A stretch of 64,000 bases of DNA. Origin: an uncultured Williamsia sp. GTDB lineage: Bacteria; Actinomycetota; Actinomycetes; Mycobacteriales; Mycobacteriaceae. Location: the NCBI RefSeq assembly GCF_947494875.1, contig NZ_CANLWM010000003.1, positions 186,001-250,000 of the forward strand. The letters are read 5' to 3'. The notes beneath the pieces were generated by a model. It ran no database searches and was not told where the DNA came from. It saw only the letters and a program-made list of their open reading frames with translations. This document shows positions 36,827 through 58,649 of the stretch, piece by piece. The position numbers and the translations under genes were made by a program. Position 1 is the first letter of the stretch. Each line of letters begins with the position of its first letter.

Positions 36827-36846
36827 CGAGCGAACTCCTTCGGTCC

Positions 36847-36888
36847 GAGAATTGCTGTTCTCACCTGACGCAAACAATACTATCGTTT
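36847..36888. promoter_or_regulatory. Operator A variant and a second long palindrome
   Basis: GAGAATTGCTGTTCTC (36847-36862) has operator A arms with a spacer one base longer. Ten bases on, AAACAATA-C-TATCGTTT (36872-36888) is a near-perfect 17-bp palindrome containing TACTAT. Both lie in the 148-base gap between the divergent amidohydrolase and synthetase operons. Confidence 0.55.
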
Positions 36889-36974
36889 CGCGAGATCGCC
36901 CGTATCGGGTCTGCTCGGATGAGCCGACCCGGTCGTGCGATCCCATCCCGACGACGTGAGTGAGGCCGCATCCG

Positions 36975-41127: not shown

Positions 41128-41212
41128 TCCCCTTCCGTTCGCATGGTGTCCGGGACGCCCGACTCCTGGACTGCGAGTTCACCAGCACTTCTGGCCCTCG
41201 ACCGTCAGCGAT

Positions 41213-41227
41213 GATAACGTCATTCTC
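41213..41227. promoter_or_regulatory. Operator A site between NTF2-like and amidohydrolase genes
   Basis: GATAACGTCATTCTC matches all 12 fixed positions of GAnAAyGnCrTTnTC and differs from the 17117 site only at the centre base. It lies 50 bases before the rightward start and 86 before the leftward one. Confidence 0.6.
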
Positions 41228-41276
41228 ACCCAGCGTTAACTGCTATTCCGCAGCTGCTCAGAGGAGGCTCTTCGTC

Positions 41277-42476
41277 ATGACGCCCCGGTCACTCGGTTAC
41301 CCGGTCTTCGACATCGACAACCACATGTACGAGACGTCGGACGCTCTCACCAAATACCTGCCACCCGAGCACAAGGGCAAGGTCGGCTACGTCTACACCA
41401 ACGGCCGTCCGAAGCTCGTGGTGAAGAACCGGATCAGCCACATGATCCCGAACCCGACGTTCGAGCGCGTGGCACGCCCGGGCAGCGCCGAGGACTACTT
41501 CCTCGGCAAGAACCCGGAGGGCAAGTCCTTCCGCGAGTTCATCGGCGAGGCGATGGACGTGCACCCCGGGTACCAGAACCCCGAGCCGCGCATCAAGCTC
41601 ATGGACGAGCTCGGTCTCGACCGCTGCGTCATGTACCCGACGCTGGCGAGTCTCATCGAGGAGCGCTCGACCGACGACGTCGTCCTCACCCACGCCGTCA
41701 TCCATGCGCTGAACGAGTGGATGCATGAGCACTGGACGTTCAATTACGAGGGACGCATCTTCGCGACGCCGGTCATCACGTTGTCGTTGGTGGACGAAGC
41801 GATCAAGGAGCTCGAGTGGATCCTCGAGCGCGGCGCCAAGACCTTCCTGGTGCGGCCGGCCCCCGTGCCGAGCCTCACCGGCGGCTCGCGGTCGATGGGT
41901 CTGCCGGAGTTCGATCCCTTCTGGCAGGCCGTCGTCGACGCCGACATCCCGGTGACCTTCCACGCCTCGGACAGCGGCTACCAGGACCACCTGATGGCCT
42001 GGGAGGGTGGCGACGAGTACCTGTCGTTCAAGCCCAGCGCGCTGCGCGAGGTCGTCATGGGTCACCGCGCGATCGAGGACACGCTCGCCGCTCTCGTGTG
42101 CCACGGTGCCCTGACGCGATTCCCCGATCTCAAGGTCCTGTGCGTGGAGAACGGCAGCGGCTGGGTCAAGGGTCTGCTCGACCAGCTCTCGGGCGCGTAC
42201 AACATCATGCCGAAGGAGTTCGACGAGCACCCGGTCGACGCCTTCAAGCGCAACGTCTACATCCACCCGTTCCTCGAGGACGACGTCCAGAGCATCGTCG
42301 AGATCATGGGTGCCGACCACGTCATGTTCGGGTCGGACTACCCGCACCCCGAGGGGATCGGCGACCCGATCAGTTTCGTCGACCGGCTCGACGGGATCTC
42401 CGAGGAGGACAAGCGGAAGATCATGGGCGGCACCGCCATGGATCTGCTGCACATCCCGGTCGACGCCACGGTCTGA
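41277..42476 (+). CDS. ACMSD-like amidohydrolase, copy 3
   Basis: The 399-residue protein has VFDIDNHMYETSDAL (D-x-D-x-H), IPVTFHASDSGYQDH for the barrel histidine, ENGSGWVKGLLDQL, and VMFGSDYPHPEGIGDP with the late metal aspartate. It is the closest paralogue of copy 2. AGAGGAGG lies upstream of ATG 41277, a few bases further than usual. It is followed after 82 bases by a MaoC gene. Decarboxylation or C-C hydrolysis of a catabolic intermediate is inferred from the family. Confidence 0.87.
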   Translation: MTPRSLGYPVFDIDNHMYETSDALTKYLPPEHKGKVGYVYTNGRPKLVVKNRISHMIPNPTFERVARPGSAEDYFLGKNPEGKSFREFIGEAMDVHPGYQNPEPRIKLMDELGLDRCVMYPTLASLIEERSTDDVVLTHAVIHALNEWMHEHWTFNYEGRIFATPVITLSLVDEAIKELEWILERGAKTFLVRPAPVPSLTGGSRSMGLPEFDPFWQAVVDADIPVTFHASDSGYQDHLMAWEGGDEYLSFKPSALREVVMGHRAIEDTLAALVCHGALTRFPDLKVLCVENGSGWVKGLLDQLSGAYNIMPKEFDEHPVDAFKRNVYIHPFLEDDVQSIVEIMGADHVMFGSDYPHPEGIGDPISFVDRLDGISEEDKRKIMGGTAMDLLHIPVDATV

Positions 42477-42558
42477 GCCGACTCGACCTCATCACGACGA
42501 CACGGTCGGTGCCCCCGGGTGCCGGCCGTGTCGTCGTATCCACACCGAAAGGACACCG

Positions 42559-43047
42559 ATGACATCCAGTGAGCAGACCGTCGTCACGTACACGGGCATC
42601 GACGCGTTCGAGGCCGCGGTCGGGAGCCATCTCGGGTACAGCGACTGGCGGGAGGTGACGCAGGATCAGGTCGACCTCTTCGCCGACGCCACCGGTGACC
42701 ACCAGTGGATCCACGTCGACCCGGTCCGCGCCGCGTCCGGCCCGTACAAGACCACGATCGCGCACGGCTACCTCACCCTGTCGATGGTGCCGCTGATGGT
42801 GCAGCAGATCTACCGCGTCACCGGGCTGGCCATGCAGGTCAACTACGGCGTCGACAAGCTGCGGTTCCCGGCACCCGTCCCGGTCGGGTCGCGGATCCGC
42901 TCCGGAGCCGAACTCGTGAAGGTCGAGCGCATCCCCCGCGGTGCCCGGTCGACCGTCCGTGTCACCGTCGAGGTCGAAGGCGGCAGCAAGCCGGCCTGCG
43001 TCGTGGACACGATCGCGATGATGGTCGAGGCCGAGCCCGGCGCGTGA
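42559..43047 (+). CDS. MaoC-family (R)-specific enoyl-CoA hydratase
   Basis: The 162-residue single-hotdog protein carries a complete hydratase 2 motif: VDLFADATGDHQWIHVDPVR, with the catalytic Asp and His, and GPYKTTIAHGYLTLSMVPLM, the substrate-tunnel helix. Such enzymes hydrate trans-2-enoyl-CoA to the (R)-3-hydroxy form, which the SDR at 23711 could then oxidise. AAAGGA precedes the ATG. It is the second gene of the amidohydrolase unit and ends at a hairpin. Confidence 0.9.
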   Translation: MTSSEQTVVTYTGIDAFEAAVGSHLGYSDWREVTQDQVDLFADATGDHQWIHVDPVRAASGPYKTTIAHGYLTLSMVPLMVQQIYRVTGLAMQVNYGVDKLRFPAPVPVGSRIRSGAELVKVERIPRGARSTVRVTVEVEGGSKPACVVDTIAMMVEAEPGA

Positions 43048-45617: not shown

Positions 45618-48002
45618 TCATCGACGGGCGAGGAGCTTGTCGCCGATGACCTGCGTCTCCCGCAGGTCGGCGATCTGCGCGTCGCCGAGTCCGACCTCGT
45701 GCAGCACCTCGTCGTTGTGCTGACCCAGGGTGGGTGCCGGCGCCCGGTGGTGGTGATCGGGCCCCGGGCTCATGCGGAACGGCCACCCGGGGAACTCCAG
45801 TTCGCCGCTGAGCGGGTGCGAGATCTCCTGGAAGTACCCGCGGTGTCGCAACTGCTCGTCGTCGTACATGCGGTCGGCCGTCATGACCTCGGTGACCGGG
45901 ACACCTGCGGCCCGCAAGGTGTCGACGATCTCGGGTCCGGTTCGCGCGGAGCACCATTTGCCGACGACGTCGTCGAACAGGTCGTGATGCGCCCTCCGGT
46001 CGGCCGCCGACGCGAGCGTGCGAGCCGCCGTGGCATCGGGGCCCACGATCGGCGTGATCGCGGCCCAGTCGTCGTCGTCGCGCACGGTGAGGGCCACGAA
46101 TCGACCCTCCTCGGAGGTCGGGTAGACACCCTGAGCCGCGACGGTGTCCCGGTTGCCCATGCGGGAGGGGACGTTCCCGGTGAGGCTGTACTCGATCACC
46201 TGCTCGGGGTTCGCGGCGGCCCCGGCCTCGATCTGCGCGACCTCGACGAGTTGGCCCTCACCGGTTCGCGCGCGGTGCGCCACCGCGGCGAGCAGGGCGA
46301 CGCAGGCGTGCACGCCGGCGATCGGATCGGCGGGACCCTGCAGGTTGCACGGATTGCCGTCGGGATACCCGGTGGCCCAGGTCATCCCGGACAGCTGCTC
46401 GAAGTTCAACGCCCAGCCGACCCAGTCGCGCCACGGGCCCTCGAGACCGAACCCGGGCATGCGGACCTCGATGACGTCGGGGTTGATCGCCCGGAGCGAC
46501 TCGTAGTCGAGACCGAACTGTTCGACGACCCGCGCCGAGAAGTTCTCGATCACGACGTCCGCCTCGCCGGCCATCCGCAGAGCGATCTCGCGACCCTCGG
46601 TGGAGTTGAGGTTCAAGGTGATGTCGCGCTTGTTCAGGTTCGTGCCCTGCCACAGCGCACCACGTTCGTAGGCGTCGTCGCCCTGGTAGAGCATCCCGCC
46701 GGAGTAGCGGTGGCTGTCCGGGCGCTGGATCGACTCGACCTTGACGACGTCGGCTCCGAGGGCGCCGAGGTAGCACGTGACGTACGCACCGGCCCAGAAG
46801 GTGCTCAGGTCGAACACGCGGAGGCCGGCGAGCGGACGCGCGGGATCTGTTGTGGCGTCGGCGCGGAAGCGTTCGGTGTCGAGCCAGGTGGTGTCGGCTG
46901 CCCCGAGCGAGGGCGCGGAGCCTGTCGGGTCGGCGGGGGTCGCCGACAGCCGGAACGCCGGTCCCGGTCGCGTGTAGCCGCGGCCGTCGAGCTCGGTCTC
47001 CACGAAGAACCCGCGCTGCTCGAACTGCGGACAGGAGAGGACGGTCCTGCCGTCGCAGACCGGTGTCGCGGGGATGCGCATCGCCTGGCACAGGGCGACG
47101 ATGTCCTCGACCTTGCGTTCGGCGACCCAGGGCTCGATGAGCGCGAAGAACTGCGCACGCTCGGGCCCGCCGATCATGATCGACATCTGGTGCTCGCCGA
47201 ATTCGATGCCGCCGACCATCGCGCAGACGTCGAGCCAGTTCTGACCGGTGAGGCAGTTGATGCCGACCCACCCGTCGGCCGCCGCGAGGACCCCGACCAT
47301 CGGCTGTGTCGACGACGTCGGCGGCAGACCCATCGACATCAACCGCTGGGCGACCAGCATCGGGTACGGCAGCGTCGACATCATCGCCTCGGCGACGGCC
47401 AGGTCCACCTCGACGACCCCGTCGCGTGCCGCGATCGGCAGCGCGGACAGCGTGGCGACCGCCACCCATGCGCCCGCGACGTACTCGGGGATCCGGCCAC
47501 CGGCGCCCACCGGCGTCCGACCGGGATCGCGCTCGGTGACCCATCCGGTCGCCGCCTGCATGGTCAGGGGGCTGGTCGGGACGCCCACCCGTGGCCCGGT
47601 CTGACCGAAGTCCGAGACACGCAAGACGACGAGCGGGTTGCCCAGTCCCTCGAGGGAGGCGTGGTCCACACCCCAGCGAGCCTGCTCCGTGCCGCCGGGC
47701 GGCAGCGACTCGATGAGGACATCGCAGTCGGCGATCAGGTCACGCACCACGCTGCGGTCCCGCGCGTCGTCGGGATCGACGGTGAGTCCGCGCTTGTCGG
47801 CGTTCACGTAGTCGAAGAGCCCGCCGTGCCGGGTCGCGACCGCCGTGTCGGCGGCGGACACGCGCTGACGCAGCACATCACCCGAACCCGTCTCGATCTT
47901 CACGACGTCCGCCCCCAGCGAACGCAGGAGACGGCATCCGTAGGGGGCGGCGATGTCCGACGCGATCTCGACGACCCGGAGCCCGACGAGGGAGCGGGTC
48001 AT
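45618..48002 (-). CDS. Tandem family III (CaiB/BaiF) CoA-transferase
   Basis: The 794-residue protein is two CaiB/BaiF domains in one chain, about residues 1-375 and 388-790. Each starts with the family's first strand and helix (LVGLRVVEIASDIAAPYGC; LAGLRVFDLSTFWAGAYVT) followed by GADVVKIE or GADVVKVES, and (Y)VNADKRGLTVD or TNLNKRDITLN. Family III enzymes are usually dimers of about 400-residue subunits, so this is a fused dimer, as seen in other actinobacteria. The CoA donor and acceptor are unknown. ATG 48002 overlaps the aldehyde dehydrogenase stop. Confidence 0.88.
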   Translation of the reverse strand: MTRSLVGLRVVEIASDIAAPYGCRLLRSLGADVVKIETGSGDVLRQRVSAADTAVATRHGGLFDYVNADKRGLTVDPDDARDRSVVRDLIADCDVLIESLPPGGTEQARWGVDHASLEGLGNPLVVLRVSDFGQTGPRVGVPTSPLTMQAATGWVTERDPGRTPVGAGGRIPEYVAGAWVAVATLSALPIAARDGVVEVDLAVAEAMMSTLPYPMLVAQRLMSMGLPPTSSTQPMVGVLAAADGWVGINCLTGQNWLDVCAMVGGIEFGEHQMSIMIGGPERAQFFALIEPWVAERKVEDIVALCQAMRIPATPVCDGRTVLSCPQFEQRGFFVETELDGRGYTRPGPAFRLSATPADPTGSAPSLGAADTTWLDTERFRADATTDPARPLAGLRVFDLSTFWAGAYVTCYLGALGADVVKVESIQRPDSHRYSGGMLYQGDDAYERGALWQGTNLNKRDITLNLNSTEGREIALRMAGEADVVIENFSARVVEQFGLDYESLRAINPDVIEVRMPGFGLEGPWRDWVGWALNFEQLSGMTWATGYPDGNPCNLQGPADPIAGVHACVALLAAVAHRARTGEGQLVEVAQIEAGAAANPEQVIEYSLTGNVPSRMGNRDTVAAQGVYPTSEEGRFVALTVRDDDDWAAITPIVGPDATAARTLASAADRRAHHDLFDDVVGKWCSARTGPEIVDTLRAAGVPVTEVMTADRMYDDEQLRHRGYFQEISHPLSGELEFPGWPFRMSPGPDHHHRAPAPTLGQHNDEVLHEVGLGDAQIADLRETQVIGDKLLARR

Positions 48003-49456
48003 GCCGGCGACCCGATGGCCTTGGGTTCCATGTAGGTGCGCAAACCCATCTCGCCGCCCTCGCGGCCGATCCCGCTCTGTCCGAACCCGCCGAAGGGTGC
48101 GTCGCCCGGCGTGGTGCCGTTGATCGACACCTGGCCGGTCCGCATGCGCCGGGCGATCGCGAGCGCACGGTCGGTGTCGGTGCCCCAGACCGCCCCGCCG
48201 AGGCCGTACTGCGAGTCGTTGGCGATCGCGACTGCCTCGTCGTCGGACTCGTAGGACAGCACGGTGAGGACCGGACCGAACACCTCTTCCTGGGCGATGT
48301 GATCGGAGCTTCGCACGCCCGTCACGATCGTCGGGGCATAGAAGTGCCCGGCGCCCGCGTCGACACGGTGTCCCCCGGTGGCGACGGTTGCTCCGTCGGA
48401 CACGGCCTTGTCGACCATGGTGCTGACGCGCTCGAGGTGATCGGCGCTGATCAAGGGACCCATGTCGACGTCACCGGCCACAGGGTCGCCGACGGTCACC
48501 TTCTCGGCGAGGGAGACCAGGCGGGCGACGATGTCGTCGTGTCGTGACGCGGGCACGACGAGCCGACTGTTGAGGATGCACGCCTGTCCCGCGTGCAGGG
48601 TGCATCCCTCGAACAGCAACCGCGCCATGGTCTCGTCGTCGAGATCGGCGTCGTCGAGGATGATCGACGCCGACTTGCCGCCCAGTTCGAGCAGGACGCG
48701 CTTCATCGTCCGCGCCGCCGCGGCCATGACCGACCGGCCCACCGCCGAACTGCCCGTGAAGCTGACCATGTCCACGCGGGGGTCGGTGGTGAGCAGCTCG
48801 GACCCCTCGAGCGAGCTGGGTGTCACCACGTTGACGACCCCGGCGGGGATGTCGGTCTGTTCGTCGATGATCGTCGCCAGCGCGAGCGCCGAGAGCGGTG
48901 TCAGCGGCGACGGCTTCAGCACCACCGTGTTGCCCGCGGCGAGGGCGTTGCCCACCTTCATCGCGTTCAGGGTGTGCGGGAAGTTCCAGGGCGTCAGGAC
49001 CGACACGACGCCCAAGGGCTCGTACCGGAGAAGGGTGGTGCCGGCCGCGCCCCACGCGGGGATCGCGCTCTCCACGGGCTCCGCCGCCAGTTCGGCGTTG
49101 CGCAACGCCATGATCGCCGGGGCGTCGATCTGGAAGAGGCGCTCGTTCTCGGTGCATCCCCACTCGTGCTTCGCCAGTGCGAGGAGATCGTCGCCGGCGC
49201 CGAGCAGGGCGTTCGCGAGCTGCTGGACGTGCTCGGCGCGTTCCTTGGGATCGAGGCCGGACCAGCCGCCGTCGTCGAACGCCCGACGGGCCGCGCCGAT
49301 CGCCGCGTCGACCTGGCCGGTGCTCGCGTCCGGGGCCATCGCGACGGTCTCACCGTTCCCGGGGCGGATGTCGGCGTACCGGCCACCCTCGGGTTCCTGC
49401 CATGCGCCGTCGATGTACACGCCATAGGAACGATCGGCCAGAACCGAATCAGACAT
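47999..49456 (-). CDS. Aldehyde dehydrogenase
   Basis: The 485-residue NAD(P)-dependent dehydrogenase has LTPWNFPHTLNAMKVGNALA, VSFTGSSAVGRSVM, LLELGGKSASIIL with the general-base Glu, HAGQACILNSRLVV with the nucleophilic Cys, and EEVFGPVLTVLSYE. It would oxidise an aldehyde to the acid, after the alcohol dehydrogenase in the same operon. I chose ATG 49456, behind AGGATGG; the long upstream extension is not supported. It is divergent from the igr-like operon. Confidence 0.93.
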   Translation of the reverse strand: MSDSVLADRSYGVYIDGAWQEPEGGRYADIRPGNGETVAMAPDASTGQVDAAIGAARRAFDDGGWSGLDPKERAEHVQQLANALLGAGDDLLALAKHEWGCTENERLFQIDAPAIMALRNAELAAEPVESAIPAWGAAGTTLLRYEPLGVVSVLTPWNFPHTLNAMKVGNALAAGNTVVLKPSPLTPLSALALATIIDEQTDIPAGVVNVVTPSSLEGSELLTTDPRVDMVSFTGSSAVGRSVMAAAARTMKRVLLELGGKSASIILDDADLDDETMARLLFEGCTLHAGQACILNSRLVVPASRHDDIVARLVSLAEKVTVGDPVAGDVDMGPLISADHLERVSTMVDKAVSDGATVATGGHRVDAGAGHFYAPTIVTGVRSSDHIAQEEVFGPVLTVLSYESDDEAVAIANDSQYGLGGAVWGTDTDRALAIARRMRTGQVSINGTTPGDAPFGGFGQSGIGREGGEMGLRTYMEPKAIGSPA

Positions 49457-49607
49457 CTGCCATCCTGCTGTCGGTGGGTGAACGACACATTGTGAACACA
49501 TGACGCGCGCCGTAGTCAATGATGCTGGACCACGAAAGTCCGCTTCACGTGGGCCAATCCGTCGATCTTGACAGCTCGTGCGAGCGGAGTCCATGCTTGC
49601 GGGCGTC

Positions 49608-49636
49608 GTACATTCTCATCGTAAGTGTACGTTCTC
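49608..49636. promoter_or_regulatory. Direct repeat of operator A half-sites
   Basis: GTACATTCTC and GTACGTTCTC lie 19 bases apart in the divergent leader before the P450 at 49661. The CrTTCTC ends equal the right half of operator A, but no left half-sites were found, so binding is less certain. The rest of the 204-base gap shows nothing clear. Confidence 0.4.
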
Positions 49637-49660: not shown

Positions 49661-50851
49661 GTGCTGACCGACGTCCCGCTTCACACGCCCGAGTTCTTCG
49701 CGGGCAACCCCTACCCGGCATTCCGTGAGATGCGCGCGGGAGCGCGCGTGTGGTGGAACGACGTCACCAAGTTCTGGGCGCTGGTCCGATACGACGACAT
49801 CCGGTTCGTCTCGTCGAACCCGGCGCTGTTCTCGTCGGCGAAGGGGATCATCATCCCCGAGGTCGACGGTGAGGAGCTGATCCAGCCCGAGAACCTCATC
49901 TTCACCGACCCGCCCCGTCACCGACAGTTGCGCAAGCTCATCAGCGCCGGCTTCACCCCTCGCCAGGTCGCGCTCCTGGCCGACGAGATCACGAAGATCG
50001 TGACGGGGATCTTCGACGAGATCGACACGACGCGGGAGTACAACTTCGCCGAGGACATCGCGGCCCCGCTCCCCACCCGGCTCATCGCGGACATGCTCGG
50101 TGCCCCGTCGACGGACTGGGAACAGTTCCGCCACTGGTCCGACGCGATCGTCGCTCTGAACGACCCCGACATCGAGCAGGACCCGCTCGAGGCCATGGCC
50201 GAGTTGTACGAGTACTTCCTGAAGCTGATCAACCTGCGCCGGGAGGGCGTCTCCACCGGCAAGACCGATCTCCTCGCGATCCTCGCGGCCGCCGAGGTCG
50301 ACGGTCTGAAGCTGACCGACGACGATCTGCTCGCGTTCTCGTTCCTCCTCCTGGTCGCCGGCAACGAGACGACGCGCAACCTCCTGGCCTTCGGCATGCT
50401 CAACCTCATCGAGAACCCCGATCAGTTCGCGCTGTTGCGGTCGGACCACTCCCTCATCCCGTCGGCGATCGAGGAGATGCTGCGGTACAACTCGCCCGTC
50501 GCGCACATGGCGCGCACCGCCACCGCCGACGTCGAGGTGGGCGGCCAGCTCATCAAGGAGGGTGACCGGGTCGCCATGCTCTACGGCGCCGCGAACCGCG
50601 ACGAGGACGTCTTCGGCGACGACGCCGAGGAGTTCATCATCACCCGTGACCCCAACCCGCACATCGCCTTCGGATACGGCGAGCACATGTGCCTGGGCGC
50701 TCAGCTGGCGCGACTCGAGGCGCGGATCTTCTTCGAGCAGTTCCTCACCCGGTTCTCCGACATCTCACTCGTCGGAGACATCACCCGTCTCCGAGCGACG
50801 ATGGTCCCGGGGGTCAAGAAGATGCCGGTACGACTGAAGGCAGGTGCCTGA
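49661..50851 (+). CDS. Cytochrome P450, first gene of igr-like operon
   Basis: The 396-residue P450 has LLVAGNETTRNLLAFG in the I-helix, EEMLRYNSPVAHMAR with ExxR, and FGYGEHMCLGAQLARLEAR with heme ligand C344. These motifs are shared with the CYP125/CYP142/CYP124 group, which oxidises sterol or branched lipid termini in mycobacteria, and its operon position equals that of cyp125 in the igr operon. Orthology is not proved. The GTG start follows ACAGGAGG. Its stop overlaps the next start (TGATG). Confidence 0.92.
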   Translation: MLTDVPLHTPEFFAGNPYPAFREMRAGARVWWNDVTKFWALVRYDDIRFVSSNPALFSSAKGIIIPEVDGEELIQPENLIFTDPPRHRQLRKLISAGFTPRQVALLADEITKIVTGIFDEIDTTREYNFAEDIAAPLPTRLIADMLGAPSTDWEQFRHWSDAIVALNDPDIEQDPLEAMAELYEYFLKLINLRREGVSTGKTDLLAILAAAEVDGLKLTDDDLLAFSFLLLVAGNETTRNLLAFGMLNLIENPDQFALLRSDHSLIPSAIEEMLRYNSPVAHMARTATADVEVGGQLIKEGDRVAMLYGAANRDEDVFGDDAEEFIITRDPNPHIAFGYGEHMCLGAQLARLEARIFFEQFLTRFSDISLVGDITRLRATMVPGVKKMPVRLKAGA

Positions 50852-52035
50852 TGGATTTCGACTACACCGACGAACAACTCGAGCTGCGCGAGAAGCTCCG
50901 GAGCGAACTCGACGCCGTCATGACGCCGGAACGTCAAGCGGCGATGGAGAACCGCCTGGAGGGCGGTCCCGCGGTCAAGGAGTGCCAGCGCGCCCTCGGC
51001 GACGCGAATCTTCTCGCGGTGTCGTGGCCCGAGGAGTACGGCGGCCGCGGGTTCTCCGCGATCGAGCAGTACCTCTTCTCCAACGAGGCCAAGCGTGTGA
51101 ACGCGCCGATCCCGATGATCACCCTGAACACCGTGGGCCCCACCCTGATGCAGTTCGGTTCTCAGCAGCAGAAGGATTTCTTCCTGCCGAAGATCCGGCA
51201 GGGTGAGCTCGACTTCGCCGTCGGGTACTCGGAACCCGGCGCCGGCAGTGACCTCGCCGCATTGCGAACCACCGCGGTGCGTGACGGCGACGAGTGGGTG
51301 ATCAACGGCTCCAAGATGTGGACGAGCGGTGCGGAGTTCGCCGACTACGTCTGGCTCGCTGCTCGGACGGACCCCACCCTGAAGAAGCACAAGGGTCTGA
51401 GCCTCTTCATCGTCCCGACCTCCGCGCCCGGGTTCTCGTGGAAGCCGTTGCGCACCATGCCCGGTGTGCAGACGTACTACACGTTCTACGACGACGTCCG
51501 CATCCCTGCGGAGAACCTGGTGCACGAGGTGAACGGCGGTTGGGCGCTCATCACGGCGCAGCTGAACCTCGAGCGTGCGGCGCTCGGCAACCTCGGTGCC
51601 ATCGAGCCCCTGTGGGAGAAGACGCTGGACTGGGCGCGCACCACGTCGCACGGTGGCGGGAAGGTGATCGACGAGCCCTGGGTGCAGTCGACCCTGGCGC
51701 GCGTCGAAGCCGAGATCGCGGCATACAAGCTCCTCAACCTTCGGGTGAACGCGTCGATCGGCTCCGGTGGTCTCGGGATGGCGCAGGCATCGGCGGCCAA
51801 GGTGTTCGGCACCGAACTGGTCCAGAAGGTGGCGCGCGAACTCCTCGAGGTGGTGGGGGCGAACGGTATCCGAGCGGGCGCCAACGCACCGCTGCGCGGT
51901 GCGTTGGAGACCGCCTATCGACAAGCGGTCATCACCACGTTCGGCGGGGGTGCCAACGAGGTCCAGCGCGACATCATCGCGATGGCCGGCCTCGGCATGC
52001 CCCGCGCCCCCCGCGACACCTCGTCCAAGAAGTGA
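50851..52035 (+). CDS. Acyl-CoA dehydrogenase, FAD-binding (FadE26/FadE28-like)
   Basis: The 394-residue protein has GYSEPGAGSDLAALRTTAVRD, WVINGSKMWTSGAEFADYV and PTSAPGFSWKPLRTMPG, and ends ITTFGGGANEVQRDIIAMAG. The TFGGG-x-NEVQRDII ending, without the Y-E-G catalytic motif, is that of mycobacterial FadE26, the FAD-binding subunit of a heteromeric steroid side-chain dehydrogenase. Its probable partner is the dehydrogenase at 53043. It overlaps the P450 gene by one base. Confidence 0.9.
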   Translation: MDFDYTDEQLELREKLRSELDAVMTPERQAAMENRLEGGPAVKECQRALGDANLLAVSWPEEYGGRGFSAIEQYLFSNEAKRVNAPIPMITLNTVGPTLMQFGSQQQKDFFLPKIRQGELDFAVGYSEPGAGSDLAALRTTAVRDGDEWVINGSKMWTSGAEFADYVWLAARTDPTLKKHKGLSLFIVPTSAPGFSWKPLRTMPGVQTYYTFYDDVRIPAENLVHEVNGGWALITAQLNLERAALGNLGAIEPLWEKTLDWARTTSHGGGKVIDEPWVQSTLARVEAEIAAYKLLNLRVNASIGSGGLGMAQASAAKVFGTELVQKVARELLEVVGANGIRAGANAPLRGALETAYRQAVITTFGGGANEVQRDIIAMAGLGMPRAPRDTSSKK

Positions 52036-52070
52036 CCCCGTCCCCCCCGATGACCCAGGAGTCCCCCACC

Positions 52071-52616
52071 GTGCCAGACAACGACGGTCTGCAGGCCCGG
52101 CTCGACGCGATGATCGGTCAGCCGACGTCGACCACCCCGGTGAGCCATGCGCCGGATCCGGTGAACCAGCCGATGATCCGCCACTGGGCCTACGCGCTCG
52201 ACGACATGAACCCGGCCTACCTCGACGCGGAGTTCGCCGAGAACTCGCGCTTCGGGGGCGTGGTCTCGTCGCCGGTCATGCTGCAGACGTGGACGATGCC
52301 CCCGCCCGAGCTCGTGCACCTCCACGAGCGCGGTGGGGTCCCGATCGTCGTGAAGGACAACCCGCTGCAGTTCCTCGCCGATGCGGGGTACACCGGCACC
52401 GTCGCCACCAACTCGGAGTTCGAGATCGAGCGTTATCCACGCGTGGGTGACGAGCTGACCGCGGAGACGGTGTTCGACGAGATCTCGACCGAGAAGAAGA
52501 CGGCCATGGGGACCGGGTTCTTCGTGACCTGGCTGACCACCTACCGCGATCAGGACGGCGAGGTGGTGGGGCGCCAGCGCTTCCGGACCCTGCGATTCAA
52601 GCCGGGCGCGAAGTGA
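52071..52616 (+). CDS. MaoC-like hotdog protein, ChsH2 N-domain-like
   Basis: The 181-residue protein is a FAS1-like dehydratase hotdog domain: MIRHWAYALDDMNPAYLD, GVVSSPVMLQTWTMPPP, TVATNSEFEIERYPRVGDEL and GTGFFVTWLTTYRDQDGE. It corresponds to the N-terminal half of ChsH2 in the igr operon, which with ChsH1 forms a heteromeric enoyl-CoA hydratase for the C3 side chain. The start is GTG 52071 because AGGAG lies nine bases before it; GTG 52032 and ATG 52050 are also in frame. It overlaps the DUF35 gene by GTGA. Confidence 0.83.
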   Translation: MPDNDGLQARLDAMIGQPTSTTPVSHAPDPVNQPMIRHWAYALDDMNPAYLDAEFAENSRFGGVVSSPVMLQTWTMPPPELVHLHERGGVPIVVKDNPLQFLADAGYTGTVATNSEFEIERYPRVGDELTAETVFDEISTEKKTAMGTGFFVTWLTTYRDQDGEVVGRQRFRTLRFKPGAK

Positions 52617-53041
52617 TCGGCACCCGGCTCGCGCCGACCATCAGCCCCGACACACAGTTCTTCTGGGACGGACTGCGCGACCACACCATCCTGATCCAGC
52701 AGTGTTCCGACTGCGGCACACGGCGATTCCCGCCGCGGCCGATGTGCTTCTCCTGTCAGTCACTGAAATGGGAGACCGTGACGGCGGCAGGCACCGGGAC
52801 CGTCCACAGCTTCGTCATGCCGCAGTACCCGCCGCTGCCCTTCTTCGAGTACCCCTACATCGTCGCCCTGATCGACCTCGACGAGGGCGTCCGACTGGTC
52901 TCGAACCTCACCGACGTCGCGCCCGACGACGTGCACATCGGCATGCCCGTGACGGCCTACTTCACGACGTTCGACACCCTCGACAAAGAGGAGCTGGTCC
53001 TGCACCAGTTCCGTCCGACCGCTGCGGCAGTGGGAGATTGA
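52613..53041 (+). CDS. DUF35 OB-fold/zinc-ribbon protein, ChsH2 C-domain-like
   Basis: The 142-residue protein has a rubredoxin-like zinc ribbon, C31-x2-C34 and C45-x2-C48, followed by an OB-fold (GTVHSFVMPQYPPLPFFEYP, DEGVRLVSNLTD). In mycobacteria this domain is the C-terminal part of ChsH2 and binds the thiolase-fold Ltp2 to make the active aldolase. Here it is a separate gene, between the hotdog gene and a dehydrogenase gene, with GTGA overlap. It probably docks with the protein at 54616. Confidence 0.87.
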   Translation: MIGTRLAPTISPDTQFFWDGLRDHTILIQQCSDCGTRRFPPRPMCFSCQSLKWETVTAAGTGTVHSFVMPQYPPLPFFEYPYIVALIDLDEGVRLVSNLTDVAPDDVHIGMPVTAYFTTFDTLDKEELVLHQFRPTAAAVGD

Positions 53042-53042
53042 C

Positions 53043-54170
53043 ATGGACTTCACCTTCACCGACGAGCAGGAAGCGATTCACGACGTCGCCCGGAAGCTCT
53101 TCGAGACGCGCGCGACACCCGAGCGTCTGACCGAGATCGAGGCCGGCGACGTCCGCTTCGACGCCGAGCTCTGGCAGGAACTCGCCGGTTCGGACCTGCT
53201 CGGGATCGCCCTGCCGGAGAGTGTCGGGGGCAACGGGGGTTCGTTGCTGGACCTGAGCATCGTCCTGGCCGAGGTGGGGTGGAGCGTGGCACCGGTCCCG
53301 GTGTACGCGTCACTGCTCCTCGGCGCCGACACGATCGCCCGCCACGGCGACGCCGACCAGGTGACCCAATGGCTGACCGGGGTCGGCGACGGCAGCCGCA
53401 TCCTGACGGCGGCGCTGTCCGAGCCGGGCGGCGGTGCCACCGTGGACACCACCTCGACACGCGCGACGTCCGACGGCACGGGCTGGCGGATCTCGGGTGC
53501 CAAGGAACTGGTACCCGCCGCGCAGATCGCCCATGCGGTGGTCGTACCGGCGCTGCTCGACGACGGCGACGTCGCCTTCTTCGTCGTGCCGACCGACGCC
53601 GCGGGCGTGAGTATCACGCCGGTCGCGACCACCAACGGCGAACCGCACGCCGACATCGACCTGGCAGACGTCGCCGTGGCGGCGGATCAGCGCATCGGTG
53701 CGACCACCTCGGGCCGAGAACTCCTGCGCGACCTCGTCATCCGCGCCCAGCTCGGCCTGGCGGCCGTCCAGATCGGCGTGACCGACCGCGCGTTGCAGCT
53801 CGCGGCGCAGTACACGACGCAGCGGGAACAGTTCGGTCGCCCGATCGGGTCGTTCCAGGCGGTGCAGCAACGACTCGCCGATGCGTTCATCGACGTCGAG
53901 TCGATCCGCTGGACGACCTTCCACGCGGCGTGGCTGTACTCCGAGGGCCGCGACGCCGAGCGTGAGGCGGCCATCGCCAAGTACTGGGCCGCGGAAGCGG
54001 GTCCGCGCGTGGTCGCGTCGGCGCAGCAGGTCCACGGCGGGATGGGCATCGATGTCACCTATCCCCTTCACCGGTACTTCCTGTGGGGCAAGACCTACGA
54101 GCTCAGCCTCGGCTCGGCCCCGCACCAGCTCGCCGAACTCGGCCACGGACTCGTAGGAGCGCACGCATGA
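53043..54170 (+). CDS. Acyl-CoA dehydrogenase, FadE29/FadE27-like subunit
   Basis: The 375-residue protein has DLLGIALPESVGGNGGSLL, a middle domain with the loop ALSEPGGGATVD in place of SEPGAGSD, then REQFGRPIGSFQAVQQRLADAF and VHGGMGIDVTYPLHRYFLWG. Its C-terminal half keeps the arginine and Q-x-x-G-G-x-G residues of the second flavin-binding partner. With 50851 it should form a heteromeric dehydrogenase. It overlaps the next gene by ATGA. Confidence 0.88.
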   Translation: MDFTFTDEQEAIHDVARKLFETRATPERLTEIEAGDVRFDAELWQELAGSDLLGIALPESVGGNGGSLLDLSIVLAEVGWSVAPVPVYASLLLGADTIARHGDADQVTQWLTGVGDGSRILTAALSEPGGGATVDTTSTRATSDGTGWRISGAKELVPAAQIAHAVVVPALLDDGDVAFFVVPTDAAGVSITPVATTNGEPHADIDLADVAVAADQRIGATTSGRELLRDLVIRAQLGLAAVQIGVTDRALQLAAQYTTQREQFGRPIGSFQAVQQRLADAFIDVESIRWTTFHAAWLYSEGRDAEREAAIAKYWAAEAGPRVVASAQQVHGGMGIDVTYPLHRYFLWGKTYELSLGSAPHQLAELGHGLVGAHA

Positions 54171-54619
54171 CCAGTACCACGTCCCCGGGCCGCACCCTGA
54201 CCGGCGCCGACGTCTCCGTCGGGGACGCGGTCACACCGATGTCGGTGAAGGTGACCACCACCTTGATCGTGGCCGGCGCCATCGCCTCCCGCGACTACAT
54301 GCCCGTTCACCACGACAAGGACTTCGCCACCGCGCAGGGGTCGCCGGACATCTTCCTGAACATCCTCACCACCAACGGGCTGTGCGTGAAATTTCTCCAC
54401 CAGTGGGCCGGCCCCGAGGCGATGGTCGCGAAACTGTCGGTGCGACTGGGAGTCCCGGCGTTCCCGAACAGTGACCTCGATTTCACCGGCACCGTGACCG
54501 CTGTCGAACCCGACGGCGACGGGCACCGCGTCGAGATCGATCTCGAGGGCGTCAACAACCTGGGGAAGCACGTGTACGGTACCGCGGCGCTGCACCTGCT
54601 GGACGGGCCTGCCCGGTGA
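54167..54619 (+). CDS. MaoC-family hydratase, ChsH1-like
   Basis: The 150-residue hotdog protein carries a hydratase-type motif, ASRDYMPVHHDKDFA, with Asp and His in the spacing used by ChsH1, and NGLCVKFLHQWAGPEAMVAK as the substrate helix. ChsH1 supplies the catalytic residues of the ChsH1-ChsH2 hydratase, so this and the 52071 protein are likely partners. GTGA links it to the aldolase gene. Confidence 0.87.
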   Translation: MTSTTSPGRTLTGADVSVGDAVTPMSVKVTTTLIVAGAIASRDYMPVHHDKDFATAQGSPDIFLNILTTNGLCVKFLHQWAGPEAMVAKLSVRLGVPAFPNSDLDFTGTVTAVEPDGDGHRVEIDLEGVNNLGKHVYGTAALHLLDGPAR

Positions 54620-55782
54620 CCGACACCATCGCTCGCAAGGCGGCTGTCGTCGGCATCGGCCAGACGGAGTACTCCAAGGAGTCCGGTCGTTCGGAACTGC
54701 AGCTGGCGTGCGAGGCCGTCAAGAGCGCCCTCGACGACGCCGGTCTGACGCCGTCCGACGTGGACGGGATGGTGACGTTCACGGTCGACTCGTCCGAGGA
54801 GATCGAGGTCGCGCGCAATCTCGGCATCGACGACCTCCACTTCTTCAGCCGCGTCCCGCACGGCGGCGGCGCCGCCGCCGGCACGGTCCTGCAGGCGGCG
54901 ATGGCCGTCGCGACGGGAATCGCCGACGTCGTCGTCTGCTATCGCGCGTTCAACGAGCGGTCGGGCCTGCGGTTCGGCGGCGCGGGCCGCGACCACACCA
55001 CCACTCCCCTCTGGCTCGCGCCGTACGCCCCGTTCGGTCTCATGACCCCCGCGGCGTGGGTGGCTCTGCACGCCCGGCGCTACATGGAGGCGTACGGGGT
55101 CACGAACGCCGACTTCGGCAAGATCTCCGTGATCGACCGCAAACACGCCGCGACCAATCCCGACGCCTGGTTCTACGAGAAGCCCATCACCATCGAGGAT
55201 CACCAGAAATCGCGGTGGATCATCGAACCCGTTCTCCGCCTGCTCGACTGCTGCCAGGAGAGTGACGGCGGTGTGGCGATGGTGGTGACCAGCGCGGAGC
55301 GTGCGAAGGACCTGAAGCAGCGACCCGCGGTGATCGCCGCCGCGGCACAGGGTGGTGGACGAGACGGCGAGGTGATGACGAGCTACTACCGCGACGACAT
55401 CACAGCGCTGCCCGAGATGGGGATCGTCGGCGACGCGCTCTGGACGCAGGCCGGACTCACGCCGCAGGACATCCAGACGGCCTTCCTGTACGACCACTTC
55501 ACGCCGTTCGTGTTCGTGCAGCTCGAGGAGCTCGGCTTCTGCGGACGGGGTGAGGCGAAGGACTTCGTCACGGTCGACGGGTTGTCGCTCGGCGGACACC
55601 TCCCCATCAACACCAACGGTGGCCTGCTCGGCGAGGCGTACATCCACGGGATGAACGGCATCGTCGAGGGAGTCCGGCAGATCCGCGGCACCTCGTACAA
55701 TCAGGTGCCGAACGTCGAGCACACGCTCGTCACGTCCGGTACGGGTGTTCCCACGAGTGGTCTGATCCTGGCCCAGCCGTGA
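54616..55782 (+). CDS. Ltp2-like thiolase-fold retro-aldolase
   Basis: The 388-residue protein is a thiolase-superfamily lipid-transfer-protein type. Y292 in FLYDHFTPF and Y342 in GEAYIHGMNG are 50 residues apart, as are the two active-site tyrosines (294 and 344) that I recall for Thermomonospora curvata Ltp2, and the cysteines of degradative thiolases are absent at the nucleophile position (VPHGGGAAAGT). Ltp2 removes propionyl-CoA from 17-hydroxy-steroid side-chain CoA by a retro-aldol step when bound to the DUF35 domain. The substrate here is unknown. It is the last enzyme of the operon. Confidence 0.9.
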   Translation: MTDTIARKAAVVGIGQTEYSKESGRSELQLACEAVKSALDDAGLTPSDVDGMVTFTVDSSEEIEVARNLGIDDLHFFSRVPHGGGAAAGTVLQAAMAVATGIADVVVCYRAFNERSGLRFGGAGRDHTTTPLWLAPYAPFGLMTPAAWVALHARRYMEAYGVTNADFGKISVIDRKHAATNPDAWFYEKPITIEDHQKSRWIIEPVLRLLDCCQESDGGVAMVVTSAERAKDLKQRPAVIAAAAQGGGRDGEVMTSYYRDDITALPEMGIVGDALWTQAGLTPQDIQTAFLYDHFTPFVFVQLEELGFCGRGEAKDFVTVDGLSLGGHLPINTNGGLLGEAYIHGMNGIVEGVRQIRGTSYNQVPNVEHTLVTSGTGVPTSGLILAQP

Positions 55783-55820: not shown

Positions 55821-56432
55821 ATGATGGCGCACTCGTACAGCGTCGACATGCGCAACACCCTGATGGGAGCCGCGTTCACGTGCTTCCGTGACCGCGGGCT
55901 GGCGAAGACCACGATGAGCGACGTGGCCCGCGAGGCGAAGGTCTCGCGGAGCACGCTCTACCAGTACTTCACCGACAAGGAGCACCTCCTCGAGGCATGC
56001 GCCGAGACAGCCGCCGAGCGGTTCTACCAGCGGATGGCCCAGGCGATGGACGAGGGGAAGACCCTGCGCGACAGACTGGCCCTCGCGGCGGCGTTCGTCA
56101 CGTCGGCTCTGCGGGTCGTGGAAGGGCAACTCTTCTACGACCGCGACGAGGTCAACATCCTGCTCACGCGGAACTCCCGGGCGCTGCTCAAGGACTGTGC
56201 CGATTTCATCGGCCCGTACATCGCCGCTGCTCGGGTCACGGGTGAGGTGCGCCGCGACATCGACGTTCCCGCGGCCAGCGAGTGGTTCGCGCGGATGTTG
56301 TTCTCGCTCTTCACCACCCCGTCGCCGCTCTTCGACGTCAGCGACAGTGAACGCACGCGGGATTTCGTGGCGCAGTTCGTCGTCGACGGCTTCACGCCCG
56401 ATCCGTCCGCAGCCCGTCGACGACGCCCCTGA
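55821..56432 (+). CDS. TetR-family transcriptional regulator
   Basis: The 203-residue regulator begins with a TetR helix-turn-helix (about residues 28-52: TTMSDVAREAKVSRSTLYQY, then FTDKEHLLEA) and a helical C-terminal domain. It lies 38 bases after the aldolase gene on the same strand, so it may be cotranscribed with the igr-like operon and is one candidate for the operator A regulator. No palindrome is in its own short leader. It ends inside a terminator hairpin. Confidence 0.87.
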   Translation: MMAHSYSVDMRNTLMGAAFTCFRDRGLAKTTMSDVAREAKVSRSTLYQYFTDKEHLLEACAETAAERFYQRMAQAMDEGKTLRDRLALAAAFVTSALRVVEGQLFYDRDEVNILLTRNSRALLKDCADFIGPYIAAARVTGEVRRDIDVPAASEWFARMLFSLFTTPSPLFDVSDSERTRDFVAQFVVDGFTPDPSAARRRRP

Positions 56433-56461: not shown

Positions 56462-57682
56462 TCACACGATCGCGCCGGCCTCCTTGTGGCGGGCGATCGT
56501 CTCCCAGTCGAAACCCGCCTCGAGCAGCAGCATCTCGGTGTGCTGACCGTGTTCGGGCGCGCCCACCGGGACGGCGGGGGTCTCGTCGAACTGGACCGGG
56601 TTGGTCGGCAACGCGAACGGCGTGCCGTCCGAGGTCGTCATGGTGGCCATGTACCCGTTCGCGGTCACCGACGGATCGACGGCCACCTCGCCGGGCGTCT
56701 GGACGATGCCCCATGCCCCCGACACCCCGGCCAGCGCGGAACGCCACTCCTCGAGTGTGCGCTGGGCGAACGCCTCGTCCATCAGCTGGATGAGCGTCAC
56801 CCGGTTCGCGTAACGCGAGGCGTCGTCGACGAACCGCTCGTCGTCGATCAGCTGCGGCAGACCGATGGCGTGCATCGTCTCGGCGAAGAACTTCCCCATC
56901 TGCAGCATCATCAGCGTGACGAAGCGGTTGTCCTTCGTCCGGTAGTTGCCCACCAGCGGGTTGGGCGCGTCGGCGTGGGTGAAGGTCGGGGCGGGGTTGC
57001 CGCCGAACAGGTTCGCGATCGCGATGTCGGGGCCGAGGTTCCAGGCGGCCAGTCCGAGGAGCGACACGTCGACCACGGAGCCCTTGCCCGTCGTCTTCTG
57101 CTTGTACAGCGCTGCCGCGATGCCCCCGGCGATCGTCATGCCGCCCAAAAGATCTCCGAAGGCCGGGCGCGAACGCACGGTCTCCTCGGCGTCGGCCTCG
57201 GTCAGAGCGACCGCGATCCCGCCCCGGGACCAGTACGAGACACCGTCGTACCCGGGCTTGTCGGCGTCGTCGCCCTTCGGTCCGTGGCCGCTGCCGCGCA
57301 CGTACACTACGTCGGGCTTGACCGCGCGGATGTCCTCGACGTCGATCCCCAGCCGCGCACGGCGGCTGGGCAGGTAGCTGGTGAGGAACACGTCGCAGGT
57401 CTTCGCCAGGGCGTGCAGGACCTCCTGGCCACCCTCGGTCTGCAGATCGATGCCGATGGACCGCTTCCCGCGGTTGGGGATCTCGATCATGTAGTTGACG
57501 TTGCTGCCGGCGTCGACGATCCCGCTGGTCACCAGGCCGCGCTGCGGGTCACCGCCCACACGGGGTTCGACTTTGATGACCTCGGCGCCCCACTCCGCGA
57601 GAACCGCTCCCGCCGAGGGGACGAAGGTCCAGGCCGCGACCTCCAGCACGCGGACGCCGGCGAGGGGTCTGTCATCGGTCAT
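56462..57682 (-). CDS. Family III (CaiB/BaiF) CoA-transferase, single domain
   Basis: The 406-residue protein has LAGVRVLEVAAWTFVPSAGA, GAEVIKVEP, EIPNRGKRSIGIDLQ and KPDVVYVRGSGHGPKG, the family III CoA-transferase pattern. It is close in size to FRC and BbsEF subunits. It would move CoA between acids; donor and acceptor are unknown. I used the ATG 57682 where the domain begins. It is divergent from an SDR gene, with an operator A-like site and a palindrome between them. Confidence 0.88.
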   Translation of the reverse strand: MTDDRPLAGVRVLEVAAWTFVPSAGAVLAEWGAEVIKVEPRVGGDPQRGLVTSGIVDAGSNVNYMIEIPNRGKRSIGIDLQTEGGQEVLHALAKTCDVFLTSYLPSRRARLGIDVEDIRAVKPDVVYVRGSGHGPKGDDADKPGYDGVSYWSRGGIAVALTEADAEETVRSRPAFGDLLGGMTIAGGIAAALYKQKTTGKGSVVDVSLLGLAAWNLGPDIAIANLFGGNPAPTFTHADAPNPLVGNYRTKDNRFVTLMMLQMGKFFAETMHAIGLPQLIDDERFVDDASRYANRVTLIQLMDEAFAQRTLEEWRSALAGVSGAWGIVQTPGEVAVDPSVTANGYMATMTTSDGTPFALPTNPVQFDETPAVPVGAPEHGQHTEMLLLEAGFDWETIARHKEAGAIV

Positions 57683-57788
57683 GTGGCGATGCCTCCAGTT
57701 CGACTGTGCGGCAACCGATGGCGATCGCCTCATGATGGCCCGCGGCGTCGTGAAGTCGCCCACCGCGAGCCCGCGGGAAGAATAACAC

Positions 57789-57814
57789 TCTCGTTCGACG
57801 AGAACGCCCTTTCC
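57789..57814. promoter_or_regulatory. Palindrome and operator A-like site, divergent leader
   Basis: TCTCGT-TCG-ACGAGA (57789-57803) is a perfect 15-bp inverted repeat. It overlaps GAGAACGCCCTTTCC (57800-57814), which matches operator A at 10 of 12 positions. The rest of the 187-base gap between CoA-transferase and SDR genes shows nothing else clear. Confidence 0.45.
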
Positions 57815-57869
57815 GTACAGAGCTGCTCCACTAGACTTCCTGATGTTCATCACCGATGGAGGAGTGCCT

Positions 57870-58649
57870 GTGACCCAGGATGGGGCGACCATGACGGCTG
57901 CCGATCGGACCGTGCGAGACCTCGAGGGTGTGCGCATCCTGGTCGTGGGGGCGTCGTCGGGGATCGGGCAGGCATGTGCCACCGCCGCGGCCCGGCGGGG
58001 TGCCCGCACGGCGATCGCCGCGCGGCGCACCGACCTCCTCGACGAGATCGCCTCCAGGACCGGCGGGATCGCGCGCGCTCTCGACGTGTCCGACGCCGAC
58101 GAGGTCCGCCGTGTCGTCGGTGACGTGGCGAGCGCCATGGGTGGGCTGGACGCGGTGATCGTCACCAGCGCCGTCGCCCCCTTCGCGCGCGTCGACGAGA
58201 CCGACGCCACGACGTGGTTGCACGCGTTCTCGGTGAACAGCATCGGCGTCTCGAACGTGATGGAGTCCGCGCTGGCGCATCTCGATGCCGACGCGACCAT
58301 GCTGATCGCGTCGGCGCACGACGTCGGGAGACCACGTGCGGGTGTCGCCGCCTACAACGCGAGCAAGGCGGCCCTGAACGAGATGCTGCGGTCGTGGCGC
58401 GCGGAACGCCCGGAGTTGTCGCTGATCCGGGTCGACGTGGGACCGACGAAGGACACGGAGATCCTCCGTGGAGCCGACCGGGAGATGTTGGCGGAACTGT
58501 GGGACGGGTGGATGCACTCCGGTCAGGTGCCTGCCCAGATGTCGGCACTCGAGGATGTCGCGAACACGATCGTGTCGCTGCTCGCCATGGCGCGGGCCAA
58601 CCCGTCGGTGGTCCCCGAGGTCGTCGCGCTCGCGCCGCGATACCGCTGA
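57870..58649 (+). CDS. Short-chain dehydrogenase/reductase (divergent)
   Basis: The 259-residue SDR has ILVVGASSGIGQACATAAARRG as cofactor loop and ASAHDVGRPRAGVAAYNASK with Ser, Tyr and Lys of the active site. The NNAG motif is replaced by VTSAVAPF, which is unusual but tolerated. The GTG at 57870 follows GGAGGAG; ATG 57843 and ATG 57891 are also in frame. It ends before a strong hairpin. The substrate is unknown; hydroxyacyl or steroid alcohol oxidation would fit its place. Confidence 0.83.
   Translation: MTQDGATMTAADRTVRDLEGVRILVVGASSGIGQACATAAARRGARTAIAARRTDLLDEIASRTGGIARALDVSDADEVRRVVGDVASAMGGLDAVIVTSAVAPFARVDETDATTWLHAFSVNSIGVSNVMESALAHLDADATMLIASAHDVGRPRAGVAAYNASKAALNEMLRSWRAERPELSLIRVDVGPTKDTEILRGADREMLAELWDGWMHSGQVPAQMSALEDVANTIVSLLAMARANPSVVPEVVALAPRYR

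Follow-up and report, generated by a model that had tools for sequence, protein, structure and literature searches.

An igr- and cas-like operon with ChsH2 divided into two genes: a candidate module for the excision of a three-carbon side chain

The window analyzed here, a stretch of 64,000 nucleotides from an uncultured Williamsia sp. (contig NZ_CANLWM010000003.1, positions 186,001 to 250,000), harbors at positions 49661–55782 an operon resembling those of steroid side-chain degradation. Seven closely packed open reading frames (ORFs) on the plus strand encode a cytochrome P450, two acyl-CoA dehydrogenases, a pair of MaoC hot-dog proteins, a DUF35 protein and an aldolase. ChsH2, a single fused protein in the igr and cas operons, is present here as two separate genes, and this division is found in all 81 loci compared. 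In combination with a divergent aldehyde dehydrogenase and CoA-transferase, the operon probably forms a self-contained module that would oxidize, activate and excise a three-carbon side chain as propionyl-CoA, with the hydratase and the aldolase–DUF35 pair as separate complexes.

The first gene of the operon (49661–50851, GTG start) encodes a CYP125/142/124-like P450. It is followed by acyl-CoA dehydrogenase a (ACADa, 50851–52035) at the position of FadE29 and CasL, the non-catalytic hot-dog H2N (52071–52616), equivalent to the N-terminal domain of ChsH2, the free DUF35 protein (52613–53041), equivalent to its C-terminal domain, acyl-CoA dehydrogenase b (ACADb, 53043–54170) at the position of FadE28 and CasN, the catalytic hot-dog H1 (54167–54619), equivalent to ChsH1 and CasO, and the Ltp2-type aldolase LTP (54616–55782). 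All seven frames are open, with the order and boundaries given in an earlier annotation made from the sequence alone (the initial annotation). For every core protein except the P450, the best match in the PDB is a chain of a side-chain enzyme. H2N matches only 4w78_A and 4wnb_A, both from ChsH1–ChsH2 entries (85 bits), and H1 is closest to 4wnb_B. The DUF35 protein matches 6ok1_B, named ChsH2(DUF35), with 124 bits and lies above the Pfam cut-offs for zf-ChsH2 and OB_ChsH2_C, and LTP matches 6ok1_A with 566 bits. ACADa, which is 47% identical to the igr copy of the same genome, finds 4x28_A (397 bits) followed by Tcur3483, and ACADb finds Tcur3481 (6wy8_A, 256 bits) followed by 4x28_D (222 bits); 4x28 and 6wy8 represent the ChsE-type pairs that act on steroids in M. 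tuberculosis and T. curvata. The best matches of the P450, at 328 and 323 bits, are two entries of CYP125MRCA, the first of which is 46.4% identical across 390 residues of the query; about 80 bits below these follow many P450s, including CYP124, CYP142 and CYP125. By convention, membership of a CYP family corresponds to more than 40% identity; to four P450s from igr-order loci the protein is just 36–37% identical. The PDB and Pfam matches bear out the igr-like gene content that had been proposed.

The stop codon of H2N and the start codon of the DUF35 gene share the tetranucleotide GTGA, an overlap of 4 nt that places DUF35 in the −1 frame. For comparison, the best 80 of 249 loci encoding an H2N relative were taken from a scan of named genomes and the window was added. 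H2N and DUF35 are separate ORFs in each of these 81 loci and also in the 26 loci of a second set, which overlaps the first; both sets were picked by closeness to the window H2N. Fused ChsH2 is found in all 14 comparison loci mapped beside the set of 26, and a linker of 13–49 residues lies between the domains in 28 fused or triple-fused relatives. The distance between the two genes ranges from −4 to +3 nt across the 81 loci (−1 in 64), the remainder modulo 3 being 2 in 70 loci, 1 in seven and 0 in four; in L071 and L074 both genes lie in the same frame with a stop codon between them. The −1 frame and the short overlap in the window could be read as a fused ChsH2 which merely appears as two genes, through an assembly frameshift, as a pseudogene or by programmed frameshifting. 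With gaps falling into each of the three relative frames, neither an assembly frameshift nor a fixed programmed −1 frameshift is tenable, and the same applies to a pseudogene with every locus split; the probability left to this explanation is negligible. The split with its GTGA overlap is thus genuine, and the frameshift at 52613 that the initial annotation had named as a threat to it is excluded. The short distances suggest translational coupling of the two genes.

All seven genes stand in the same order in 70 of the 81 loci, three of these near a contig end. Nearly all of the 80 named loci belong to Mycobacterium, Mycolicibacterium or Mycolicibacter, the exceptions being one ‘Mycobacteriaceae bacterium’, Nocardia vaccinii and one Rhodococcus metagenome-assembled genome (MAG). 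Among 401 searched genomes of the same family, close H2N relatives (65–77% identity, frames of 182–317 residues) occur in 23 genomes of one genus (g29, most likely Mycobacterium in the broad sense), in G283 and in the window's own genome; the remaining matches at 1e-30 or better are 41–49% identical, and those mapped are fused. Within the genus of the window, its own genome is the only one out of eight to carry this operon type, so the copy may have been gained horizontally.

The residues expected for catalysis are preserved throughout the window-type operons. LTP contains Tyr292 within a YDHF motif and a second tyrosine, Tyr342, at the Tyr344 position; the spacing of 50 residues is as first noted, and Tyr292, Asp293, His294, Phe295 and Tyr342 are kept in 28/28 window-type rows. 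According to the available part of PMC12329534, YDHF together with a second tyrosine distinguishes TcLtp2, an enzyme acting on C3 chains, from CtSal, which acts on C5 chains. In H1 the dyad Asp43/His48 is kept in 28/28 rows, and in H2N Tyr50 replaces the catalytic histidine in 29/29. One subunit with an Asp/His dyad and another with tyrosine in place of histidine is the defining feature of the ChsH1–ChsH2 type of heteromeric hydratase, as described in the accessible text of PMC11321319. The zinc-ribbon cysteines of the DUF35 protein (Cys31, Cys34, Cys45 and Cys48) are intact, and all four are present in 29/29 window-type and 14/14 cas-labelled rows, but only in 2/11 igr-labelled rows. Igr-labelled ChsH2 proteins whose DUF35 domain lacks these cysteines (9/11) include those of L220, L221, L223 and the L021/L022 junction.

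Phylogenetic trees were built for two proteins, LTP and H2N, with operon-type labels assigned from gene order. The aldolase tree comprises hits of more than 300 residues and more than 50% identity (outside it are L078, which is cut by a contig end, L205–L207, L214–L216 and L218), and the H2N tree includes 20 of the 29 window-type rows. All 28 window-type rows of the aldolase tree form one clade apart from the igr and cas rows (support 99/100), and in the H2N tree the window-type rows again form one clade (98/93). The initial annotation had regarded a placement away from the Igr proteins as contrary to its claim; the separate clades of the two trees bear this out in part, and the branching among the igr, cas and window-type clades is not resolved in the aldolase tree. 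One outgroup (OUT_L023) falls inside the ingroup of that tree on a very long branch. In the H2N tree, the hot-dogs of a MAG family (L205–L207) appear as sisters of the window clade (100/99), a position that is not safe given the midpoint root and a long-branch warning which includes these rows. On both trees the cas group needs four changes and the igr group three, with single rows off-label (L098, L212, L222 and L225 among them). A rapidly built aldolase tree without outgroups (58 rows, of which 30 are split) requires two changes between split and fused forms, and an approximately unbiased (AU) test does not reject a single split clade (p 0.203); the H2N tree requires three when split, DUF35-less and H2–H1-fused forms are lumped. 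The window clade may either have lost a fusion or never have had one.

Gene maps distinguish three kinds of operon. The igr order is ACADb-ACADa-H2-H1-LTP and the cas order ACADa-H2-ACADb-H1-LTP, both with fused H2; the window type has the cas order but a split H2, is preceded by a P450 gene and followed by a TetR gene, and is accompanied by an aldehyde dehydrogenase and a CoA-transferase in divergent orientation. In Rhodococcus jostii RHA1, CasL, M, N, O and P correspond to the consecutive locus tags RS28440 to RS28460 in the portion of PMC8399759 that is available. The description of the window operon as an igr operon with altered order is therefore not supported, since its order is that of casLMNOP, its LTP belongs to a separate clade and a canonical igr-order operon with fused ChsH2, the existence of which the initial annotation had left to be checked, is present on another contig of the same genome. 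The aldolase of this igr operon is 65–66% identical to the window LTP. A second aldolase match of 68–71% identity is likewise present in 23/23 window-type g29 genomes; these proteins are presumably of igr type, and the matches in G205, G252 and G296 each contain one stop. The mapped second loci of carriers (L220, L221 and L223) are fused igr-order operons.

DUF35 is present in all 81 loci. Seven of them (L159, L160, L162, L164, L165, L178 and L184) are reduced copies, in which H2N-DUF35-H1-LTP is kept while relatives at 45% identity or above are absent for both dehydrogenases and the CoA-transferase, and in six copies for the P450 as well. The map of L160 leaves no room for the missing genes, L085 and L091 resemble the reduced copies, and, judged by record title, six of the seven share a genome with a complete operon of the other subtype. 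Because the reduced copies keep all four genes, the genes for hydratase, DUF35 and aldolase seem to stay together as a single unit.

Other domain arrangements occur among more distant relatives. In the MAG family mentioned above, the inert and the catalytic hot-dog are joined as H2N-H1 in one frame (L205:2923–3882, L206:7988–8923 and L207:5480–6442); neither DUF35 nor aldolase was found within the fetched stretch, and an Ltp2-like protein is encoded elsewhere in two of the three genomes. L219 (8076–9626) and L222 (7169–8602) encode MaoC-DUF35-MaoC triple fusions, i.e. ChsH2 and ChsH1 in one frame, and L217 and L226 represent further split arrangements. In the mycobacterial loci L214–L216 (H2N near 8000), H2N and H1 form an unfused pair that is accompanied by a double CoA-transferase, without a match to aldolase or DUF35; L214 and L216 also encode a P450 together with an aldehyde dehydrogenase, to which L214 adds a Rieske oxygenase and a CoA ligase.

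Conservation of the neighboring genes was scored as presence of a relative with at least 45% identity in the 80 named loci. The divergent aldehyde dehydrogenase (47999–49456, minus strand; ATG start placed by eye, mechanical ORF to 49594) has a relative in 80/80, the adjacent two-domain class III (CaiB/BaiF) CoA-transferase (45618–48002, minus strand) in 72/80, and the TetR-family regulator downstream of the operon (55821–56432, plus strand) in 74/80. Between the aldehyde dehydrogenase and the P450 lies a 25-bp inverted repeat, CGTACA-N13-TGTACG (49607–49631), 29 nt before the P450 start. The core pattern KACA-N13-TGTM is found between the aldehyde dehydrogenase and the P450 (or H2N) in 80/81 loci, compared with about one after base shuffling, and the long form CGKACA-N13-TGTMCG in 39/54 subtype-1 and 1/27 subtype-2 stretches. 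Across the genome of the window, the long form has a single further occurrence, on contig C2, and a reversed control pattern has none. This repeat is a candidate operator of the neighboring TetR protein.

In the proposed module, the P450 would hydroxylate a branched side chain at a terminal methyl group; further oxidation to the acid would fall to the divergent aldehyde dehydrogenase, and the CoA-transferase would form the thioester. The ACADa/ACADb pair would then introduce the α,β double bond, which the heteromer of H2N, the predicted inert and substrate-holding half of the hydratase, and H1, the catalytic half, would hydrate to a tertiary alcohol on the ring carbon. Finally, retro-aldol cleavage by LTP, with the separately encoded DUF35 as its partner, would yield propionyl-CoA and a ring ketone. 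A retro-aldol step would be needed because a β carbon in the ring that is bonded to three carbons cannot become a ketone, and this need speaks for a branched group of three carbons bound to the ring itself. No β-oxidation thiolase or 3-hydroxyacyl-CoA dehydrogenase is among the annotated conserved neighbors, so that a single excision seems enough and the isopropyl-type group would again be attached directly to the ring. The substrate is most likely steroid-like or another polycyclic isoprenoid carrying such a group; a steroid whose side chain is short would fit, as would a terpenoid bearing an isopropyl group.

The free DUF35 protein is likely to be a subunit of the aldolase, in agreement with the initial annotation. 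This follows by analogy, since in the accessible text of PMC11321319 the DUF35 domain of Shy, and not its MaoC domain, copurifies with Sal, since the MaoC and DUF35 domains of Comamonas ChsH2 keep both activities when expressed separately (available part of PMC12502768), and since a free DUF35 protein is encoded beside the aldolase gene in atf1-chsH4; the idea is thus not wholly new. A natural split of an Ltp2-type ChsH2 with such an operon is not described in the literature searched, where one published figure may show a separate DUF35. In fused ChsH2 the linker ties the hydratase to the aldolase. No such tie exists here at the gene level, and the two enzymes may be untethered, as the initial annotation had proposed, with weaker contacts at most, which fits the gene anatomy.

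Several observations weigh against this module. An igr-type aldolase appears to accompany the window type in 23/23 carriers, so that a purely steroid role next to igr is possible, and beside the reduced copies the CoA-transferase (7/7) and the P450 (6/7) are missing, so that not every locus holds the whole module. Another pathway could be served by the aldehyde dehydrogenase and the CoA-transferase, a three-carbon leaving unit is suggested by the aldolase type as the sole indication, and some conserved neighbor families (clusters 20, 21 and rarer ones) lie outside the annotation. Moreover, two single-chain structure models are poor (mean pLDDT 55.9 and 63.6). The operon might represent a second set of the igr/cas kind that handles the ordinary C22-CoA intermediates of steroids, with another inducer or ring decoration, a neutral split and a complex held together non-covalently. 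Relatives of known function act on steroids, the examined catalytic positions are unchanged, and both the carriers and the window's genome possess the second aldolase. However, if the sterol pathway delivers a ready CoA ester, the operon's own P450, aldehyde dehydrogenase and CoA-transferase are unexpected; in addition, the inverted repeat differs from the KstR and KstR2 sites, and the window-type proteins form a separate clade in both trees. This explanation is conceivable but doubtful. A narrower version of the module, dedicated to the removal of an isopropyl group borne directly by the ring of a cyclic isoprenoid, steroid or not, seems unlikely as a whole. Here P450, aldehyde dehydrogenase and CoA-transferase would generate a propionyl-CoA substituted at position 2; after a single dehydrogenation and a hydration, retro-aldol cleavage would release the group whole as propionyl-CoA and leave a ketone. 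The hydratase and the aldolase–DUF35 pair would dissociate freely, unlike the tethered complexes of igr and cas, and reduced loci would share the dehydrogenases of the second copy within their genome.

The order ACADa-H2-ACADb-H1-LTP is the closest found and would agree with a bile-acid operon, i.e. casLMNOP with a split casM. The CasG ligase (NF052580) scores over its cut-off in 9/9 cas-order genomes, but in 0/23 window-type g29 genomes and 0/3 igr-only genomes, and this C24 ligase was not found above the cut-off in the window's genome either. Furthermore, the cas-order rows fall outside the window-type clade, and none of the nine mapped cas-order loci has a P450 at its head; in the cas-order locus L225 on a Novosphingobium plasmid, a P450 lies behind the operon on the other strand. 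Membership in the bile-acid operons was therefore rejected, and a cas variant is highly improbable.

The self-contained module would point to an uncharacterized catabolic substrate for which a P450, an activation step and probably a regulator are dedicated. It also bears on two open questions of steroid side-chain chemistry, namely why ChsH2 carries a DUF35 domain and whether a tie between hydratase and aldolase is required to draw an unfavorable hydration forward. As the unfused version occurs in many mycobacteria beside igr-type sets, which are fused in the three mapped, tied and untied chemistry can be compared. In addition, the free DUF35 and the aldolase are candidate parts for steroid synthon production.

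Farther out, several genes are conserved almost exclusively in loci of the window-like subtype. These are an amidohydrolase-2 family protein (41211–42476, plus strand; 39/80 loci, median identity 79%), a MaoC-like protein (42310–43047, plus strand, start uncertain; 38/80, 73%), a second P450 (44357–45577, minus strand; 40/80), a second CoA-transferase (56462–58300, minus strand; 38/80, 74%), whose family match begins at residue 213 and whose true start is probably further in, and a CoA ligase (35/80). For those short-chain dehydrogenase and enoyl-CoA hydratase genes of the window that were tested, the named loci contain no relative at the 45% level. Three amidohydrolase-2 family proteins (17192–18379, 35633–36946 and the one at 41211) lie within one catabolic stretch of the window, together with several CoA ligases, acyl-CoA dehydrogenases and a luciferase-like monooxygenase (39462–40667). 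Elsewhere in the genome, DUF35 and Ltp-like thiolase matches co-occur on contigs C3 (262–277 kb), C10, C8 and C6, which suggests several aldolase or thiolase complexes. Open frames of 7,540, 11,371, 12,590 and 4,607 residues with repeated adenylation-domain matches on C1, C2 and C7 probably encode giant non-ribosomal peptide synthetases; the frame of 11,371 residues extends to both sides of the second long-form repeat.

Comparison with known systems reveals partial counterparts of the divided operon. The Rhodococcus rhodochrous plasmid pGD02.2.1 (L226, 4088–9167) also encodes two separate hot-dogs, DUF35, aldolase and two CoA-transferases, but differs in the order H2N-H1-DUF35-LTP, in having no dehydrogenase pair in the stretch shown and in an H2N of 28% identity; its neighbors are FAD oxidoreductases and an MhpA-like hydroxylase, and perhaps it belongs to a non-steroid pathway. 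The HBC operon of Mycolicibacterium neoaurum (atf1, chsH4, chsE6, kstR3), as described in the available part of PMC10398937, shares the stand-alone DUF35 (ChsH4, 138 residues) beside the aldolase gene and the TetR regulator. It differs in that no hot-dog pair is part of it as described there, and its aldolase acts on 22-OH-BNC-CoA, a role which is taken over by sal1. ORF40-44 of Comamonas testosteroni TA441 are fused in nature, and the separately expressed domains represent a man-made version of the split (PMC12502768, in the portion accessible).

Among complete operons, casLMNOP of R. jostii RHA1, which serves the C3 side chain of bile acids, shares gene order, the four-cysteine DUF35 and the enzyme types. 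It is distinguished by a separate clade, by the presence of CasG in cas-order genomes and by the CasM position, which is one fused gene in nine cas-order loci. The igr operon of cholesterol side-chain degradation (chsE1-chsE2-chsH2-chsH1-ltp2) differs in gene order, in its fused ChsH2 and in a mostly zinc-less DUF35, and the window operon is set apart from it by its own clade and by the divergent aldehyde dehydrogenase and CoA-transferase. Both nevertheless share their gene content, the pair of an inert and a catalytic hot-dog, an aldolase with YDHF and a second tyrosine and a DUF35 partner, and some mycobacterial igr copies (L096, L220, L221 and L223) likewise carry a P450 in front.

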